From positions 3,422,501-3,486,500 of the forward strand of contig NZ_CP098755.1 of NCBI RefSeq assembly GCF_023746555.1: DNA of 64,000 nt, in the 5' to 3' direction. Made by a program: the position numbers and the translations under genes. How positions within the stretch are numbered: the first letter of the stretch is position 1; every line of letters begins with the position of its first letter. This DNA comes from Brevibacillus ruminantium. GTDB taxonomy: Bacteria; Bacillota; Bacilli; Brevibacillales; Brevibacillaceae. Below are positions 50,504 to 61,906 of this stretch, piece after piece. The notes beneath the pieces were generated by a model that ran no database searches, was not told the DNA's origin, and saw only the letters and a list, made by a program, of their open reading frames with translations.

Positions 50504-51309
50504 AGCGCTGTCGATACCTCCTCTTTTTCCCAACGGGATGTATGCATGCCGGAAAAAAAGACGATATGCTTCTTTTGTGTTTTTGGATGCACGTAGATTT
50601 CTGTTTCCACCCCAAACACTTCATGAATCAAATTGGGTGTGAGCACCTCTTCCGGGGTGCCATTGGCTGCGATCCGCCCTTCGTTGATCACATACAGATG
50701 GTCACAGTACATGGCTGCGATGTTTAAATCATGCAGCGCTGCAAGGACGGTCAGCCGAAGATTTCTCAACAGATCCATGATTTGCAGCTGGTAACGTATA
50801 TCCAGATGATTGGTAGGCTCGTCCAATATCAGCAGCTTGGCTTCCTGAACCAGTGCCCGGGCAATCATGACGCGCTGCTTCTCGCCTCCAGAAAGGGACT
50901 GAAAGCTTCTCTCCGCATATTCCTCCATACCCGTGCGGACCAAGGCCTCATGAACCAAACGGGTGTCTTCGGCCGTATCGGTTTGAAACAATCTTTTATG
51001 AGCGGTGCGGCCCATCATAACAATCTCCCGCACTGTAAAATCAAACTCCACCGTAGATTCCTGGCGAACAACCGCCATGCGCTGCGCAGCTTGACGCGCC
51101 GAGAGTTGGTAGACGTCTTCCCCATTCAAGGAGACGATCCCATCATCCGGTTTTTTGATCCGGTACATGCTTTTCAGCAATGTCGATTTTCCGCTCCCGT
51201 TCGGCCCAATCAACCCGACGAACATTCCCTGACTCACCTGGACATCGATGTGCTCCAGGATCTTTTTCCCGGACAGCGCTACCGAAACCTGCCTGGCTTG
51301 GAGATTCAT
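50500..51309 (-). CDS. btuD: ABC transporter ATP-binding protein (cobalamin/siderophore type)
   Basis: A 269-aa FecE/BtuD-like ATPase. Walker A is GLIGPNGSGKSTLL, the signature is SLSGGEKQRVMIARALVQ, Walker B is LLILDEPTNHLDIRYQ, and the H-loop is LAALHDLNIAA. The start at 51307-51309 overlaps the permease stop (ATGA). The frame is open far upstream, but that part lies inside the permease gene and is not translated as one protein. Corrinoid specificity comes from the riboswitch upstream. Confidence 0.92.
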   Translation of the reverse strand: MNLQARQVSVALSGKKILEHIDVQVSQGMFVGLIGPNGSGKSTLLKSMYRIKKPDDGIVSLNGEDVYQLSARQAAQRMAVVRQESTVEFDFTVREIVMMGRTAHKRLFQTDTAEDTRLVHEALVRTGMEEYAERSFQSLSGGEKQRVMIARALVQEAKLLILDEPTNHLDIRYQLQIMDLLRNLRLTVLAALHDLNIAAMYCDHLYVINEGRIAANGTPEEVLTPNLIHEVFGVETEIYVHPKTQKKHIVFFSGMHTSRWEKEEVSTAL

Positions 51310-55195: not shown

Positions 55196-55987
55196 ATGAG
55201 CGAAACATCAATCGTTTCATCTGCTAAAGGCTCCAAGCTAGCGGTGCAGCTGTACGGCAACGGCCAGCCGCTTGTATGCATCCATGCGCCTGGCATCGGG
55301 ATGATCAATTTCTCCCGTTTACACGAATTAGCCGAGCACTTTCAACTTATCCTCCCTGATCTTCCCGGCCACGGAGCGAGCGATCCGCTGCCCATCCCTT
55401 TTACGATGGCCGATCTTAGCGAGACGTTGGAGGAAACGATTCACGCTCTCGGACATGAGCGAGTGGTCGTGATGGGCTATTCCCAAGGGGCTTCTCTCGC
55501 CCTGAAATGGTGCCTGCGCCATCCGCATTCAATCGCGGGTCTTGTGCTGGTCAGCGGTTTTTCCGAGGTGAATGAGTGGTACCTGCACTCGCGCTTTTAT
55601 TTGGCCGAGGCAATTGCCAGGATGGGTGGTGTGGGAGTATTGGCCCGCTCGACTGCCTCCTCACACCTGGACAAAGAGTCAGACAAAGAACGATGGATCA
55701 CGCATGGCAGCCGGACGGACGCCAAGACCCTTCATCACCTGTATACGATCGGCCATCGCTACCGCTGCACAGAGCGCTTGCATGAGATCAAGCAGCCCGT
55801 GCTGCTCTTGTATGGCCAGCAGGACACGCACATGCATCCGTACGGCAAGCTTATGGGAAAACACTTACCGCAAGCCCGAATGGTTTCCGTTCCTGGAGTA
55901 AAGCACCAGATCGTGACTCGCGCTGCAGAGCCTTTGAGTCGACTTTGCATAGAATTTATCGGTTCTATCCCTGTCTCTTCGGTCTGA
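55196..55987 (+). CDS. Alpha/beta hydrolase
   Basis: A 263-aa hydrolase of the small soluble type. Oxyanion loop IHAPGIGM, nucleophile elbow VMGYSQGASLA, acid in LLLYGQQDTHMH, His in VPGVKHQIVTR. AGAGGTG precedes the ATG. It is divergent from the M24 gene and converges with lanC. Substrate unknown; adjacency to the lanthipeptide genes alone is not evidence of a role there. Confidence 0.88.
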   Translation: MSETSIVSSAKGSKLAVQLYGNGQPLVCIHAPGIGMINFSRLHELAEHFQLILPDLPGHGASDPLPIPFTMADLSETLEETIHALGHERVVVMGYSQGASLALKWCLRHPHSIAGLVLVSGFSEVNEWYLHSRFYLAEAIARMGGVGVLARSTASSHLDKESDKERWITHGSRTDAKTLHHLYTIGHRYRCTERLHEIKQPVLLLYGQQDTHMHPYGKLMGKHLPQARMVSVPGVKHQIVTRAAEPLSRLCIEFIGSIPVSSV

Positions 55988-56037
55988 TCGTGCTTGGAGT
56001 TGACCAGCACAGACAACGTGCTGTGTACTCCCGGTTT

Positions 56038-57405
56038 TTACGAAAGCAAAAGAGCCGCTTCCCATTCCGGCGGCTCAGCACGCAACAGGCTGAGAAGCAC
56101 AAGAGCGGTACCGGCCGCGCCATCGAGAAGTCCAGGGTAATGAAGCCGTCTGTCACCGGATGCAAGCCGCTGTACCTCGTAGTAACCGAAAGGCGCTTCT
56201 GACGAAAACATGGTGATGACCTGTTCCGCGAGCCTGTCCCGTTCCGCTCTCAGCTCCCCGCTTTCGGCGTACATGCGCTGGGTCATCAGCAGCAAACCGG
56301 CATACCCGTGACAGATCGTCGGAGCGTAAAGATTCCACAATTCCTGCGGACGCCGAAACGTTCCCCGGTATGCCTTTAGTGCTGCCTGCTTCCAGTCTGC
56401 TTGCCCGAGCGATTCTCCCGCCAACCAGAGCGCACGGGCGACTCCCGGCGTTCCGTAGCACCACGCCTCCCGATGCACGAAGGGGTCTACTTTTCCCATT
56501 TCCCAATTCTCCAGGCTAAGCTGTGGAGCCCAGAGATCCCCGTACGCATCCGTCTGCTTCCATGCCAGCAGCCATTCTGCGATGCGCTGTATCGCCTCCC
56601 GCTGACCTTCTATCTCCACACCATGCTGCAAAGCGAGTGACAGCAAAGAGAGCACCCCTGGTATTCCGTGGGAGACACCACAGTTGAAATTTCCTTGGGG
56701 GAATCTCTCCGCATCTGCGATCGTCGCCTGCTTCTCTTTTGAGATGTGCCATGCCGGAACGCTCTTCCCTGCCACTTTTCTTTCGCCAGCGAGAGCCACC
56801 AGATAAGCGATCACATCATACAGGAGCTTCACCAGCTCGGGCTGGTCCTGCCGAAGCAGCAAGTAACGCCCAATCCCCGCTACGCCGTTGATCACGTCAT
56901 AGTCGCTCATCGCCGGACGATCCTGGAGCCGCGCTTTCGCCCCTGCGAGGTACTCGGGGAGTCGTTTTCCCAGCTGCTCCTCCAATTTTTGCAGAAAAAC
57001 CTGGTAACGGGTGCCTTGACGCGACAGCAGATGAACAGCAAAGCAGATGCCTGAAAGACCTGTCCACAGACCAAGTCCGTGGATGCCTGTACGCTGCACT
57101 TCCTGTTGGACTGCTGTCAACAGTGTGTGTCCTTTTACATCCCAGCCGTAGTTCGGATCGTTTTTGTCCAACTCGGCATACAGCAGACTGATCCCCGTAT
57201 AACCGCTTGCCAGCGACGCAGGATGAAACAAGGCATGCTGTGCACCCATGCTTTCAAACCGGTTTTCTGCGTTTTCGGCGATCTTGGCCGTGTACGCAGC
57301 ATCCTGCAGCCGAGCAGCTATCTCAAATACTTGCTTTTCGATCATCTCCCGCATCTGCGGAGACGAGACCGGCTTCCATTGGGACTTTGTTTGTTTCACC
57401 TGCAT
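56038..57405 (-). CDS. lanC: Lanthionine synthetase C-like cyclase (LanC)
   Basis: A 455-aa class I lanthipeptide cyclase. The LanC signatures are NFNCGVSHGIPGVLSL, the zinc ligand region WCYGTPGVARAL and the second zinc ligand plus His in TICHGYAGLLLM. Repeated toroid helices lie between. AAAGGAGG sits 7 nt before the chosen ATG. It is 25 nt downstream of lanB and completes the dehydration-cyclisation pair. It would join Cys thiols to dehydrated Ser/Thr in the precursor. Confidence 0.94.
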   Translation of the reverse strand: MQVKQTKSQWKPVSSPQMREMIEKQVFEIAARLQDAAYTAKIAENAENRFESMGAQHALFHPASLASGYTGISLLYAELDKNDPNYGWDVKGHTLLTAVQQEVQRTGIHGLGLWTGLSGICFAVHLLSRQGTRYQVFLQKLEEQLGKRLPEYLAGAKARLQDRPAMSDYDVINGVAGIGRYLLLRQDQPELVKLLYDVIAYLVALAGERKVAGKSVPAWHISKEKQATIADAERFPQGNFNCGVSHGIPGVLSLLSLALQHGVEIEGQREAIQRIAEWLLAWKQTDAYGDLWAPQLSLENWEMGKVDPFVHREAWCYGTPGVARALWLAGESLGQADWKQAALKAYRGTFRRPQELWNLYAPTICHGYAGLLLMTQRMYAESGELRAERDRLAEQVITMFSSEAPFGYYEVQRLASGDRRLHYPGLLDGAAGTALVLLSLLRAEPPEWEAALLLS

Positions 57406-57430
57406 GGGGGAACCTCCTTTCTTATGGCGC

Positions 57431-60400
57431 TCAAACCCGGTTTGCGCGCGCATGTCTGAGTCCGTACAGGGTGTGTCTGGCCAGGGCCATGACTTTTCGT
57501 TCACTCTCCCGGTCGGTGCCAAACAGGCGGTTTACGTTCATATGGATCACACTGGCCAAAATGTTGTCCGGCGTGTTGTGCAGTTCGTCGTTTTTGTAAG
57601 CCTCGCGAATTTTTGCCGCAAAACGGGAGAGAGCCGGCTTCCTTTGCTGAAGCAGCGGGAGGAGCTGTCGACCGTCGGGATGCGAAGCGAGTCCGGCCCA
57701 CTCACCATCTGCATTTCCAAGCGTCAAATACAGTCGCCTGGCTTCCCGAAATTCCTGTTGGTACGCTTTCTTTTCATAACGCCGCTCAAACCAGTCCAAT
57801 TGCTGCTCAAATGACATGCCAAATTGCTCCGCGATATCCAGTACGCTTATGACTCCGAGCAAGCTAAAAGCAATCCCGAGATTTCCGCCGCGTTTCAAGG
57901 CCAGCATTCCGCTGACTGCACGGCTGTCCGCTGCGAAGACGTCTTCCGCCAGCGCGATCAGAGCAGGTCCGCCATATCGCTCAATTTCCGGCTCATACGT
58001 GTCGATGACCAGTCTGGTCAGCATTCCCGCCTGCTGCAAGCCTCGTGCCCAAGCATGAAGCTCTGGCAACAGTTCGCTCGTCAGCCGCGAAGGCTCCCCG
58101 CGAAATCGCAATCGAACATGTGTCTCCGGGTCCTTATACCGCATAAAAAAGCAAGCGTCTGCCAGTCCTTTTCTCTCCATCTCCGCGCAAAACTGCCGCA
58201 TCGGAAAACCGATACACTCCTCTTCCCGGCTTTTACAGCCATACAGCTTGGCATAGAGCCACTGTCCTCCCGGCAAATGGTAACGGGCGGGGCCCTCAAG
58301 TATCCGGCTTGCCACAGTGCTTGGCAGTTTCTCCGTCACCGGCTGCCGCTGCCCTCTTTTCACCAGTGGGATGGCTACCTCCAGCCAGACCGGCCCGTCC
58401 GGGGTTTGCGCCAGATGCTCTCCATCCAGGATCGGGGTCTCAGTCAATACGAGCGATTCGCTTGGTTTCATTTGTTCAAACTCGCGGTGCAGCATCTCTA
58501 CATGCAGCGGATGCATGAGATCAAGTAAAATCCGGTTGTCCCCTTCGGTGAGAAACACCTGCTGAGGAAGCTTCCACTTCTCCCGCCATTCTTTTACAGC
58601 ATCCATCCAGGCTTCCTTTGACATCCGCTCGGAAAAAGGAGCCGTATGCTTGTAAATTCGCCATCTCGCCAACGACAGGATCGACTTCCCATAGCGTATT
58701 CGCGGTACATGCGGGGACTGTTCCAAGCCTCCCCATGAAAAGCTCCCCCAATTGCCCTGCCGTTCCTGAGCGATTTCCCGTAAAAAGCGATAGACGGGCG
58801 GAGTGTTCCTGAGGGTGAGCATATGTCCTGTCGTCGGGATAATCTCTTTTCCCAGCGACGCTGACCTTATGTACAGGGAGTCCAAGGTGGCGCCGACGAA
58901 CAGATCGGATAACGGCAACGCTTTTTCTTCCGCTTGCTCTCCCGGATTGGTCCCGAGAACGATCTCATATGGGCGAATGTTTGGAGACAGCGTAACATTC
59001 GATAATCGATCATGCGCAGGCAGATACGAGATTTCCGCATGGACCGCATCCGGGTCGAGAGCCTGTTCAGCGGCATGGACTTCACGTAATTGCTCCAAAA
59101 ACGACTCTCCGAACAGATCGGCGAAACGGCCAAACGTCTTTCCAGCTCCATTGGAACCCGGATTTGCTCCGACAATCAGGCGAAAGTCTCCTCGGCCAAG
59201 CTCATCTCTGTTCTTCGCTGAAAGAGTCGCGTACAGCTCGAGAGATTTTGGAGCCTTCCCTTCATCCCAACCACCTGGAGCCATTGCTTCCAAGTGCTCA
59301 TCCGTCAATTCGACTTCCTGTTTTCCTTCCATTTGTGCGGACAGAAGCAGTTCCAGCAAAAGGGAGCTCCGTTTGGTGGTTTTTCCCCTTGCCGATTTGT
59401 TTTCTGCCCTGAGCTCATACTCTTCCAAACTGCCTAATCCAAGGTCCTCGTCCAATAGCAGCAGCAAGGGGACTTCCCCGTGGATTCCGTACCTCTCGAT
59501 AAAATCAGTATGCAGCTCCTGAAGAAACGACGAGCGGTCTGCATTTGCCGACAGGCGGCAAAGGGCCTGAGCAGCACGGGCAGCCTCCTGCGCCACTTCT
59601 GCCGGCAGCTCTACCTGCTCTGCTGACAGCTGCAAGTCAACCTGCAAAGGATGATCTGTTTGGATGATTGACCTCATCTTGCTGGACAGTCCCCGATATC
59701 TCTCGGTCCCTTCCCCCAGCCGAAGCTGATCATAGTCAGCGATCAGAGTCGCGATATCCTTCAGTTCCTTTTTCAACTCGTCTATTCCCTGGACAGGCTG
59801 CAGACGCTCCAGCACGTACGCAAATGGACTGGGATGGGACAAAGGCGGTCTCAGCTCGCTGATCAGGTATTCTTGCCGAAAGAGCTGCCACAAAAAATGG
59901 CGAATTTTCTCGGGAGGTGTTTCAGGATGATCGGCCTCTACTTTTTTTCGCAAATCGAGATAGGGAATCATCTCTTTTGCTTCATGCAGCACCATCTGAA
60001 CGACCGGAGAAGCTTGAATGGACGAGCTCAAGCTTTTCTTCCGTCCCCCTCCCTCCTGTGGTCCAGTATTGATCAGATACGACAGCTTGGCTCGTGAACC
60101 TGTCAGGTACACAATCGAATTCGTACGCACCTGTAGCTGCTCAACCACATCAGGCATACTCTCCAGTGTGCGGATGAGTTCCATCAGCCATTCCATGTCA
60201 GGCCGCGTGCGCTTCTTGTGATCGGTAAAAGAGTGAAGCGCGATCCGGCCTCGACTTTCTTCTCCCCACTTTCCGCAAGCTACGCCGGAGCACAGCCCAA
60301 ATGGGGTCGGACGGGTGATCATGCGGATCACGTAACGCATAAAGCTGCGGACAGTCTGGTCCCGCTTCCGAGACTCTCCCGTATGCGCAAGGCTGTGTAA

Positions 60401-60661
60401 GGCTTCAAATAAGGTTGGCGAGGCAACTGCAATCGCTTCTCGTACCACCGGATGGCGAGATAGTGTCTCAAGCTTGGCGATGGCCGCCGCGTACTGAGCT
60501 TCAGAAGCGTCATCGCTTGCAGAAAAAAGATGTCCATACCATTCGGCGGGCAACAACGGCGTCCGCAGCATGAAGAACGGGAGCGGCCTGTAAACGGATA
60601 AGGATTCGTGGTTCTTCGTCACGTCTTCCATTACAGCTGGATGTTGGAGAAATCTACTCAT
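57431..60661 (-). CDS. lanB: Lantibiotic dehydratase (LanB), full length
   Basis: A 1076-aa class I dehydratase, the usual size. The N-terminal glutamylation domain has the start YRPLPFFMLRTPLLPAEW, then MITRPTPFGLCSGVACGKWG. The large middle follows, with PGSNGAGKTFGRFADLFG. The C-terminal SpaB_C elimination domain has FFMRYKDPETHVRLRFRGEP. The enzyme uses glutamyl-tRNA to dehydrate Ser and Thr. The ATG follows AGGGGGAT. Its promoter overlaps that of lanA, which is divergent. Confidence 0.94.
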   Translation of the reverse strand: MSRFLQHPAVMEDVTKNHESLSVYRPLPFFMLRTPLLPAEWYGHLFSASDDASEAQYAAAIAKLETLSRHPVVREAIAVASPTLFEALHSLAHTGESRKRDQTVRSFMRYVIRMITRPTPFGLCSGVACGKWGEESRGRIALHSFTDHKKRTRPDMEWLMELIRTLESMPDVVEQLQVRTNSIVYLTGSRAKLSYLINTGPQEGGGRKKSLSSSIQASPVVQMVLHEAKEMIPYLDLRKKVEADHPETPPEKIRHFLWQLFRQEYLISELRPPLSHPSPFAYVLERLQPVQGIDELKKELKDIATLIADYDQLRLGEGTERYRGLSSKMRSIIQTDHPLQVDLQLSAEQVELPAEVAQEAARAAQALCRLSANADRSSFLQELHTDFIERYGIHGEVPLLLLLDEDLGLGSLEEYELRAENKSARGKTTKRSSLLLELLLSAQMEGKQEVELTDEHLEAMAPGGWDEGKAPKSLELYATLSAKNRDELGRGDFRLIVGANPGSNGAGKTFGRFADLFGESFLEQLREVHAAEQALDPDAVHAEISYLPAHDRLSNVTLSPNIRPYEIVLGTNPGEQAEEKALPLSDLFVGATLDSLYIRSASLGKEIIPTTGHMLTLRNTPPVYRFLREIAQERQGNWGSFSWGGLEQSPHVPRIRYGKSILSLARWRIYKHTAPFSERMSKEAWMDAVKEWREKWKLPQQVFLTEGDNRILLDLMHPLHVEMLHREFEQMKPSESLVLTETPILDGEHLAQTPDGPVWLEVAIPLVKRGQRQPVTEKLPSTVASRILEGPARYHLPGGQWLYAKLYGCKSREEECIGFPMRQFCAEMERKGLADACFFMRYKDPETHVRLRFRGEPSRLTSELLPELHAWARGLQQAGMLTRLVIDTYEPEIERYGGPALIALAEDVFAADSRAVSGMLALKRGGNLGIAFSLLGVISVLDIAEQFGMSFEQQLDWFERRYEKKAYQQEFREARRLYLTLGNADGEWAGLASHPDGRQLLPLLQQRKPALSRFAAKIREAYKNDELHNTPDNILASVIHMNVNRLFGTDRESERKVMALARHTLYGLRHARANRV

Positions 60662-60705
60662 CGTATCCCCCTGTCCACAAATTTTTCCAAAAAATACTTT
60701 TTCTA

Positions 60706-60735
60706 TTGATTTTTGAATAGTCTAAATAGTATGAT
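60706..60735 (+). promoter_or_regulatory. Candidate lanA promoter
   Basis: The -35 TTGATT (60706-60711), an 18-nt spacer and -10 TATGAT (60730-60735) put the start near 60742, 36 nt before the lanA ATG. Confidence 0.6.
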
Positions 60736-60749
60736 ATGTATGCAGTGTA

Positions 60750-60778
60750 ATTATATGGTAGAGAGGATGAAAATTCAA
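60750..60778 (-). promoter_or_regulatory. Candidate lanBC promoter, face to face with the lanA promoter
   Basis: On the minus strand, -35 TTGAAT (60773-60778), a 17-nt spacer and -10 TATAAT (60750-60755) give a start near 60743. Its -35 includes the A of the lanA ATG. Each transcript would cross the other promoter. Confidence 0.55.
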
Positions 60779-60912
60779 TGAGCAAAGACATGTTTGACCT
60801 GGATCTGCAAGTAGCAGAAGTAAACTGTTCTTCTTCCAGCGAGGAGGCAGCGACGTTTACCTGCCATACCTACAACTGCAATTCCTACACCGATTGCATC
60901 CTCTGCAGCTGA
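60778..60912 (+). CDS. lanA: Class I lanthipeptide precursor (LanA)
   Basis: A 44-aa peptide, easily missed by gene callers. AGAGGATG lies about 8-10 nt before the ATG. Residues 6-11 are FDLDLQ, the FNLD-type box that LanB recognises in class I leaders. Residue C17 is followed by four Ser (18-21), then EEAA. The presumed core (residues 26-44) is TFTCHTYNCNSYTDCILCS: four Cys (29, 34, 40, 43) and donors T26, T28, T31, S36, T38. Several Thr/Ser lie three to five residues before a Cys, the usual ring spacing. No clear GG or PQ cleavage site is present. It is the only precursor seen. I do not recognise its core as a named lantibiotic. Confidence 0.85.
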   Translation: MSKDMFDLDLQVAEVNCSSSSEEAATFTCHTYNCNSYTDCILCS

Positions 60913-60965
60913 TTCTTCCGCCGAACCATCGCTTATCCATCTTGTGTGTCAGCATCTACGATAGG

Positions 60966-61003
60966 AAAAACCCCGAATCAAGTCTTCTTGATTTCGGGGT
61001 TTT
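60966..61003. terminator. Bidirectional terminator between lanA and the oligopeptide permease
   Basis: A stem of AACCCCGAATCAAG against CTTGATTTCGGGGTT (one bulged T), a 3-nt loop, and T4-T5 on both sides. It ends lanA on the plus strand and the permease gene on the minus strand. Confidence 0.9.
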
Positions 61004-61012
61004 CTGCTCTTC

Positions 61013-61906
61013 TCAATTTTTCATCCGTGGATCGAGTGCATCGCGGAGTCCGTCACCGATCAAGTTAAAGCCAAGAACAGTCAGCATGATGGACAAGCCT
61101 GGGAAAAAGACTGTCCACGGCGCTTTTTGAATATACTGGCGAGAGTCGGAGAGCATCAACCCCCACTCCGGCTGTGGCGGCTGAGCCCCCAAACCGAGAA
61201 AGCCCAGGGCTGCCGCTTCAATGATGGCTGTCGCTATCCCAAGCGTCCCCGTCACGATGATCGGAGCCAGACTGTTAGGAAGAATATGCTGCATGATGAT
61301 ATGCGAATGCTTTGACCCGATCGCCCTGGCAGCCATTACGTATTCTTCTTCCTTCAGACTCAGCACTCGTGATCGAACAAGTCGGCCGTAAGTGGGCACA
61401 TTCACGATGGCAATCGCAAGCAAAGCATTTTCAAGTGAAGGTCCGAGGATTGCTACAATTGCGATGGCCAGCAGGATGCTGGGAAACGCCAGCATAATGT
61501 CAAACAGCCGGGAGATGAGCGTGTCGACCCATCGGCCGAAATAGCCTGCCAACAGTCCAAGGAAGGTCCCTGCCACCACGGAACCGATCACGGCAAGCAG
61601 CCCTACCCTAAGAGAAATCTGTGCGCCGTAAATCACGCGGGTAAAGACGTCTCGACCGTTGTAGTCCGTGCCAAACCAGTGCTCAGCAGAGGGAGGCAAA
61701 TTTTTATCGACCAGTTCTCCTTTGTCGTAATCGTACGGGGTGATAAACGGAGCCAGGATCGCGAGCAAGACGAAGAAGAGAATGATGCAGAATCCGAGAA
61801 TTGCCATCTTGTTTTTGAGCAGGATCCTCCAAGCATCGCGCCACGGAGAGGAGAGCGGCTCATTTATCTGCTTGACTAGTACCGGTTGCACATGGGTTTC
61901 TGCCAT
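61013..61906 (-). CDS. oppC: Oligopeptide ABC transporter permease (OppC/DppC type)
   Basis: A 297-aa permease. N-terminal WRDAWRILLKNKMAILG, then six helices, the inner-membrane EAA region AARAIGSKHSHIIMQHILPNS, and family motifs AEHWFGTDYNGRDVFTRVIYG and GAQPPQPEWGLML. It lies 13 nt after oppB in one operon with an upstream substrate-binding protein. Di- or oligopeptide transport by family. Confidence 0.94.
   Translation of the reverse strand: MAETHVQPVLVKQINEPLSSPWRDAWRILLKNKMAILGFCIILFFVLLAILAPFITPYDYDKGELVDKNLPPSAEHWFGTDYNGRDVFTRVIYGAQISLRVGLLAVIGSVVAGTFLGLLAGYFGRWVDTLISRLFDIMLAFPSILLAIAIVAILGPSLENALLAIAIVNVPTYGRLVRSRVLSLKEEEYVMAARAIGSKHSHIIMQHILPNSLAPIIVTGTLGIATAIIEAAALGFLGLGAQPPQPEWGLMLSDSRQYIQKAPWTVFFPGLSIMLTVLGFNLIGDGLRDALDPRMKN

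Follow-up and report, generated by a model that had tools for sequence, protein, structure and literature searches.

A predicted minimal class I lanthipeptide cluster with an FDLD-type precursor in Brevibacillus ruminantium

A frame of 44 codons in the 64,000-nucleotide stretch of Brevibacillus ruminantium DNA analysed here (the window) is, as the best explanation of the locus as a whole, very probably the lanA gene of a minimal class I lanthipeptide cluster. The cluster would be a compact set of substrate and enzymes, comprising a 44-residue precursor, one dehydratase and one cyclase, which suits reconstitution in E. coli, and the core of the precursor was matched nowhere else in the searches made. 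The coordinates of the features are given in Table 1.

Table 1. Position of the lan cassette and of adjoining features in the window
Feature	Position	Strand	Description and basis
lan cassette (lanC, lanB, lanA)	55995..60947		~4.95 kb, missing at the corresponding site of G024
lanC	56038..57405	-	predicted cyclase, by homology dependent on zinc; 455 aa if read from the ATG after AAAGGAGG; Pfam, alignment
lanB	57431..60661	-	predicted Ser/Thr dehydratase of 1076 aa, by homology dependent on glutamyl-tRNA; divergent from lanA; Pfam, catalytic residues
divergent intergenic region	60662..60777		116 bp, AT-rich (29% GC); one promoter-like site per strand
Shine-Dalgarno-like AGAGAGG of lanA	60760..60766	+	sequence; 11 nt before the ATG
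lanA	60778..60912	+	putative class I lanthipeptide precursor of the FDLD type, 44 aa; leader ~1-25, predicted core ~26-44
stem-loop, likely terminator	60964..61005		tail to tail between lanA and oppC; folding

The frame runs on the plus strand from an ATG at 60778 to a TGA ending at 60912 and encodes the peptide MSKDMFDLDLQVAEVNCSSSSEEAATFTCHTYNCNSYTDCILCS. The Shine-Dalgarno-like sequence, the FDLD box (residues 6-9) and the four C-terminal cysteines that a sequence-only reading had ascribed to it were all confirmed. Five cysteines are present (C17, C29, C34, C40 and C43), the last four of them within the final 16 residues; C17 is located in the leader, ahead of the likely core. In known class I peptides the FNLD/FDLD box starts 16-20 residues ahead of the cleavage site, as excerpted from PMC3930743, and therefore the leader/core border can reasonably be placed after residues 21-25, with a predicted core of approximately residues 26-44; the Pro at position -2 that the same source gives as common to many class I leaders is not found in LanA. 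Residues 26-44 contain six Ser/Thr (T26, T28, T31, S36, T38 and S44), so that up to six dehydrations are possible and the earlier figure of "up to four or five" is too low. The monoisotopic mass calculated for residues 26-44 is 2187.84 Da without modification and 2079.77 Da after six dehydrations. A mini-frame of four codons plus stop (ATG AAA ATT CAA TGA, 60767-60781) overlaps the lanA start and may be meaningless.

LanA scored 24.3 bits against the NCBIfam model NF038155 (FDLD family class I lanthipeptide), above the curated cut-off of 20. When all six frames of the 5.6 Mb genome were searched with the model, LanA scored 23.2 bits and was the sole match over the cut-off, the runner-up reaching 14.4 bits; among 14 control genomes, matches were found in two and matches over the cut-off in none. 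No Pfam model was matched, TIGR03731 (gallidermin/nisin family) gave no match at E up to 1, and the 23.0 bits scored against NF033457 (elgicin/penisin), reflecting similarity in the leader, stayed below the 40-bit cut-off of that model. A close homologue of the LanA core was not found in the sequence searches: 72,556 plasmid records gave no match, 60 genomes gave, besides the own genome, only weak partial matches (best E 0.0088), and the core string TFTCHTYNC was not found in the literature by string search. The earlier statement that no lantibiotic known to that reading is matched was upheld within these searches, and the novelty proposed with it would hold for the sequence but not for the kind of product, class I lanthipeptides being already known. 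From the sequence comparisons, the assignment of LanA as a class I lanthipeptide precursor, new in its sequence but of a known kind, is well supported. The expectation that the frame would be missed in routine annotation is doubtful: lanA may well be annotated, because its product passes the cut-off of an NCBIfam model with which NCBI names genes. In general the concern is fair, given that approximately 24% of class I precursors are listed as not annotated in the available part of PMC7268733.

Separate, full-length LanB and LanC genes adjoin lanA, lanB at a distance of 116 bp and lanC after it; their Pfam domains and catalytic residues, together with the NF038155 score, bear out the precursor-plus-enzymes arrangement that had been proposed from the sequence. 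LanB matched Lant_dehydr_N and Lant_dehydr_C over nearly the full model lengths. For LanC, a frame of 494 aa in the list of open reading frames was set aside, its start being an earlier TTG inside lanB. LanC was aligned with NisC and with 8byk, presumably MadC, the maddinglicin cyclase; C316 in the WCYG motif and C365 and H366 in the CHG motif are identical, and the zinc ligands lie in these motifs. The best solved relative of LanB is 9g04, which is named in the MadB paper (PMC12241602). The residues that the available part of that paper lists as essential to NisB and retained by MadB are Arg89, Arg93, Thr95, Asp128, Asp308, Arg483, Arg822, Arg864 and His1005 (MadB numbering), and by alignment all nine are found in LanB, as R113, R117, T119, D155, D342, R512, R852, R895 and H1040, i.e. 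the listed residues for glutamylation and elimination are conserved.

Three points had been absent from the sequence-only reading: the divergent orientation of lanA, the missing exporter and the position of the cassette at a site that is empty in relatives. In the nearest relative, G024, whose oppC is 96% identical, the DNA aligns to 55994 and again from 60948, with approximately 110 bp in between. An M24 peptidase gene and oppC were found in all 26 genomes of the genus; they are 5946 bp apart here versus 121-1149 bp in the 25 others, as taken from best matches, with the DNA of the site inspected for five of the 25. Since this gap is wide here and short in the others, the lan cassette looks like an insertion that, among the 26 genus genomes, is present in this one only. 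The GC content of 56038-60912 is 54.3% versus 51.5% for the window. A phage origin of the cassette is unsupported, LanB having only two matches of about 25% in phage records and the LanB alignment none in the viral contigs scanned.

On the side opposite oppC the cassette is flanked by an alpha/beta-hydrolase gene (55196-55987). The hydrolase and the opp genes were considered as cluster members and rejected, the oppC-M24 pair being close in all 25 other genus genomes and G024 having the hydrolase at the site without lan genes. Pfam scans of ten neighbours identified an oligopeptide-type ABC importer, the M24 peptidase, an ABC importer of the FecCD type along with the binding protein belonging to it, a rubredoxin-domain methyltransferase and a sigma factor of the ECF type; one protein matched no Pfam model.

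Two promoter-like sites were found in 60500-61100 versus a mean of 0.8 in shuffled sequences, both being matches to the consensus only. The one on the minus strand (60750-60778; TTGAAT, 17, TATAAT) overlaps the ribosome site and the start of lanA, an overlap through which interference might link the two transcripts. The stem-loop downstream of lanA has fold z-scores of -5.2 on both strands, and a pattern-based terminator scan of 60500-61100 reported none despite this strong stem. Since 60948-61003 aligns to G024, the stem-loop is located in shared sequence and predates the lan insertion.

No exporter, LanD, immunity (LanI, LanFEG) or regulatory gene was recognised beside the cassette, i.e. in the hydrolase gene and the ten neighbours scanned with Pfam, and therefore the cassette might be silent. 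A cognate LanT was not found beside lanB and lanC; the window holds only a 31% match to the ATPase domain (50641-51267), an ABC gene beside the FecCD and binding-protein genes. The best LanT-like gene of the whole genome is 31% identical over nearly the full length (312 bits versus 171 for the next), whereas related loci with a full-length LanT show 41-51% identity, a range that omits the query's own locus (100%) and a near twin (96%). LanT matches at E up to 1e-60 were obtained in two of the six genomes tested. G024 has a 32% LanT match but no LanB match, and its locus is homologous to the LanT-like locus of the window genome (ABC gene 52% identical, same neighbours); because the homologous locus occurs in this LanB-free genome, the LanT-like exporter is not part of the lan insertion. 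If export is borrowed, this ABC exporter, at G000:C1:1716502, is the leading candidate for it. A precursor was looked for beside this gene and none was recognised. The stretch around it (L049:6936-14604; G000:C1:1715936-1723604) also encodes a MauE protein (over the Pfam cut-off), a protein of 1381 aa and two redoxin- or thioredoxin-like proteins under the Pfam cut-off, and the exporter may serve some peptide. In L039, one of the related loci, MauE and a weak thioredoxin-like gene directly follow lanC. A leader protease was not recognised in the cluster, which is not unusual since class I clusters often have no protease of their own and are served by one encoded elsewhere, as stated in the available part of PMC8960859.

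LanB was found in five of the 26 genomes of the genus, that of the window being one of them, and in five of 39 from the order. With a threshold of E 1e-150 it was matched in 15 of the 398 Bacilli genomes sampled (again with the window's), where the closest LanBs, from G178, G188 and G208 (family f36) and from G387, are 44-47% identical. In a LanB tree of 22 rows the protein of the window sits on a long branch in no supported group, and therefore resemblance to the f36/G387 set is claimed here, not descent. A contig scan with a single LanB query found no relative; with the LanB alignment it yielded 11 loci, two of them on contigs already sampled (L034 = G005, L040 = G013). LanB matches were also found in 95 plasmid records, one of which (L050) was examined.

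For comparison, 23 distinct related LanB loci were used, the same-contig repeats L034, L040 and L072 being left out. A precursor was seen in 21 of them (in L050 by its annotation), on the strand of lanB in 18 and divergent in three loci of one genus (L063, L065 and L068); none was seen in L035 and in L038, which starts at a contig edge. A divergent lanA as a property of the window alone was rejected: the early loci were co-directional, but these three are not. Two further loci with short flanks were inspected for precursors: L060 has one on the plus strand, like its lanB, and L059 shows none. A search by tblastn with one LanT query gave a full-length LanT near lanB in 17 of the 23 loci and a partial match in L037; the L035 stretch stops at a contig edge, and in L039, L066, L067 and L069 no full-length LanT was seen in the stretch examined. 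Absence of an exporter, a divergent lanA and an acidic core are each seen in some relative, and a divergent lanA combined with no LanT was seen in none of the 23 loci. A pattern-based selection from the loci gave 52 FDLD precursors, that of the window among them; their C-terminal part is net negative in 40 and without Lys/Arg in 25, so that the core of the window is ordinary in charge.

Compared with known systems, the window shares with the FDLD class I lanthipeptides of NF038155 the leader box, the precursor size and the adjacent LanB and LanC; it differs from that family in a core matched nowhere else, a cassette without LanT and a lanA divergent from lanBC. The maddinglicin proteins (MadA/MadB, 9g04, and the cyclase 8byk) are the best solved relatives of LanB and LanC, with essential residues conserved, but the three N-terminal rings of MadA are nisin-like according to the available part of PMC12241602, whereas the core of the window has no CTPGC-like motif. 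The f36 clusters (G178, G188, G208, G138, G148 and G168), in which the LanBs of genus g84 are 44-47% identical to that of the window, resemble it in the divergent lanA of the three loci named above and in short FDLD cores, mostly net negative; most of them have several precursors and LanT, in contrast to the single precursor and missing LanT of the window. The precursors of four Brevibacillus relatives are also unlike that of the window, the cores of L030 and L031 having seven Cys and four Lys/Arg, and the two that were scanned (L028 and L030) pass NF038155 only. Class I clusters in other Brevibacillus isolates are reported in PMC9867215, the available part of which gives no sequences.

In the proposed pathway, the FDLD box of LanA would dock on LanB, which would dehydrate some of the six Ser/Thr of the core, and LanC would then join C29, C34, C40 and C43 to dehydrated residues, giving up to four (methyl)lanthionine rings; possible rings are T31-C34, S36-C40, T38-C43 and C29 with T26 or T28. 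The leader would be cut off near residues 21-26 by a protease from outside the recognised cluster genes, and export, if any, would proceed via a non-cognate transporter from another locus. Acquisition of the cassette, as lanA-lanBC, probably took place between the alpha/beta-hydrolase gene and oppC. CTPGC-like motifs form the A/B rings of lipid II-binding lantibiotics; such a motif is absent from LanA. The product is unlikely to be a lipid II-binding lantibiotic of the classic kind; as to its role, the likeliest guesses are a bacteriocin of narrow range or a signal. If it is secreted without a cognate LanT, a general exporter and protease able to serve class I lanthipeptides would be revealed.

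It is doubtful that the product is an antibacterial lantibiotic of one of the classic types (nisin, gallidermin or elgicin). The sub-threshold similarity to the elgicin/penisin model points in this direction. An argument against an antibiotic from the absence of Lys/Arg in the core was dropped, which slightly raised the odds of this reading: 25 of the 52 FDLD precursors are without these residues, among them the four L036 copies, which contain CTPGC and of which the one scanned matches the gallidermin/nisin model. The scores against both lantibiotic models argue against this type, as do the scanned neighbours, in which no lantibiotic immunity gene was recognised, and the absence from LanA of CTPGC, which is found in eight of the 52 precursors (L030, L031, the four L036 copies, L042 and L043).

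It is unlikely that the cassette is a decaying remnant that has lost lanT and other genes and no longer yields a secreted product. In favour of this reading, no cognate LanT was found anywhere in the genome, the surroundings of the cluster included, and 17 of the 23 related loci have a full-length LanT in the stretch examined; against it, the three lan genes are intact, the catalytic residues are in place, the ribosome sites are plausible, and four of the related loci are likewise without a full-length LanT in the stretch examined. Quite unlikely, too, is a transporter-less lanA-lanBC that makes an acidic polycyclic peptide, kept inside the cell or released via a borrowed exporter, for a role other than antibiosis. 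A chance frame beside an orphan lanBC whose real substrate is encoded elsewhere is highly improbable: f36 genomes do have FDLD precursors far from lanB, but LanA is the only match to NF038155 over the cut-off in its genome and lies next to lanB, and a crude motif test, with criteria chosen after the peptide had been seen, gave one match in the real window and none in 60 Markov-random sequences of 64 kb.

Further observations were made at the related loci. Around one class I LanB, L063 and L068-L071 (all f36) carry several FDLD precursors with short variable cores, and L065 (f36) carries one; in seven f36 genomes, NF038155 was matched 0-18 times per genome at E up to 0.01, many matches being far from lanB. 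Our guess is that f36 is Tumebacillus. The arrangement at the f36 loci is prochlorosin-like within class I and is partly reported for Tumebacillus; since a class I cluster with 10 distinct precursors is described for that genus in the available part of PMC7268733, such precursor arrays are not new. In L066:7102-10734 and L067:8540-13248 a lanA-lanB pair is followed by genes for a histidine kinase and ABC-type proteins (the kinase was domain-checked in L067); these stretches gave no LanC match, and both genomes have a second LanB locus with LanC. The Priestia megaterium plasmid locus L050:6342-10217 carries three lanA copies under one protein accession, and its lanB is annotated as two pieces, the gene being a single feature in the other Priestia plasmids listed.
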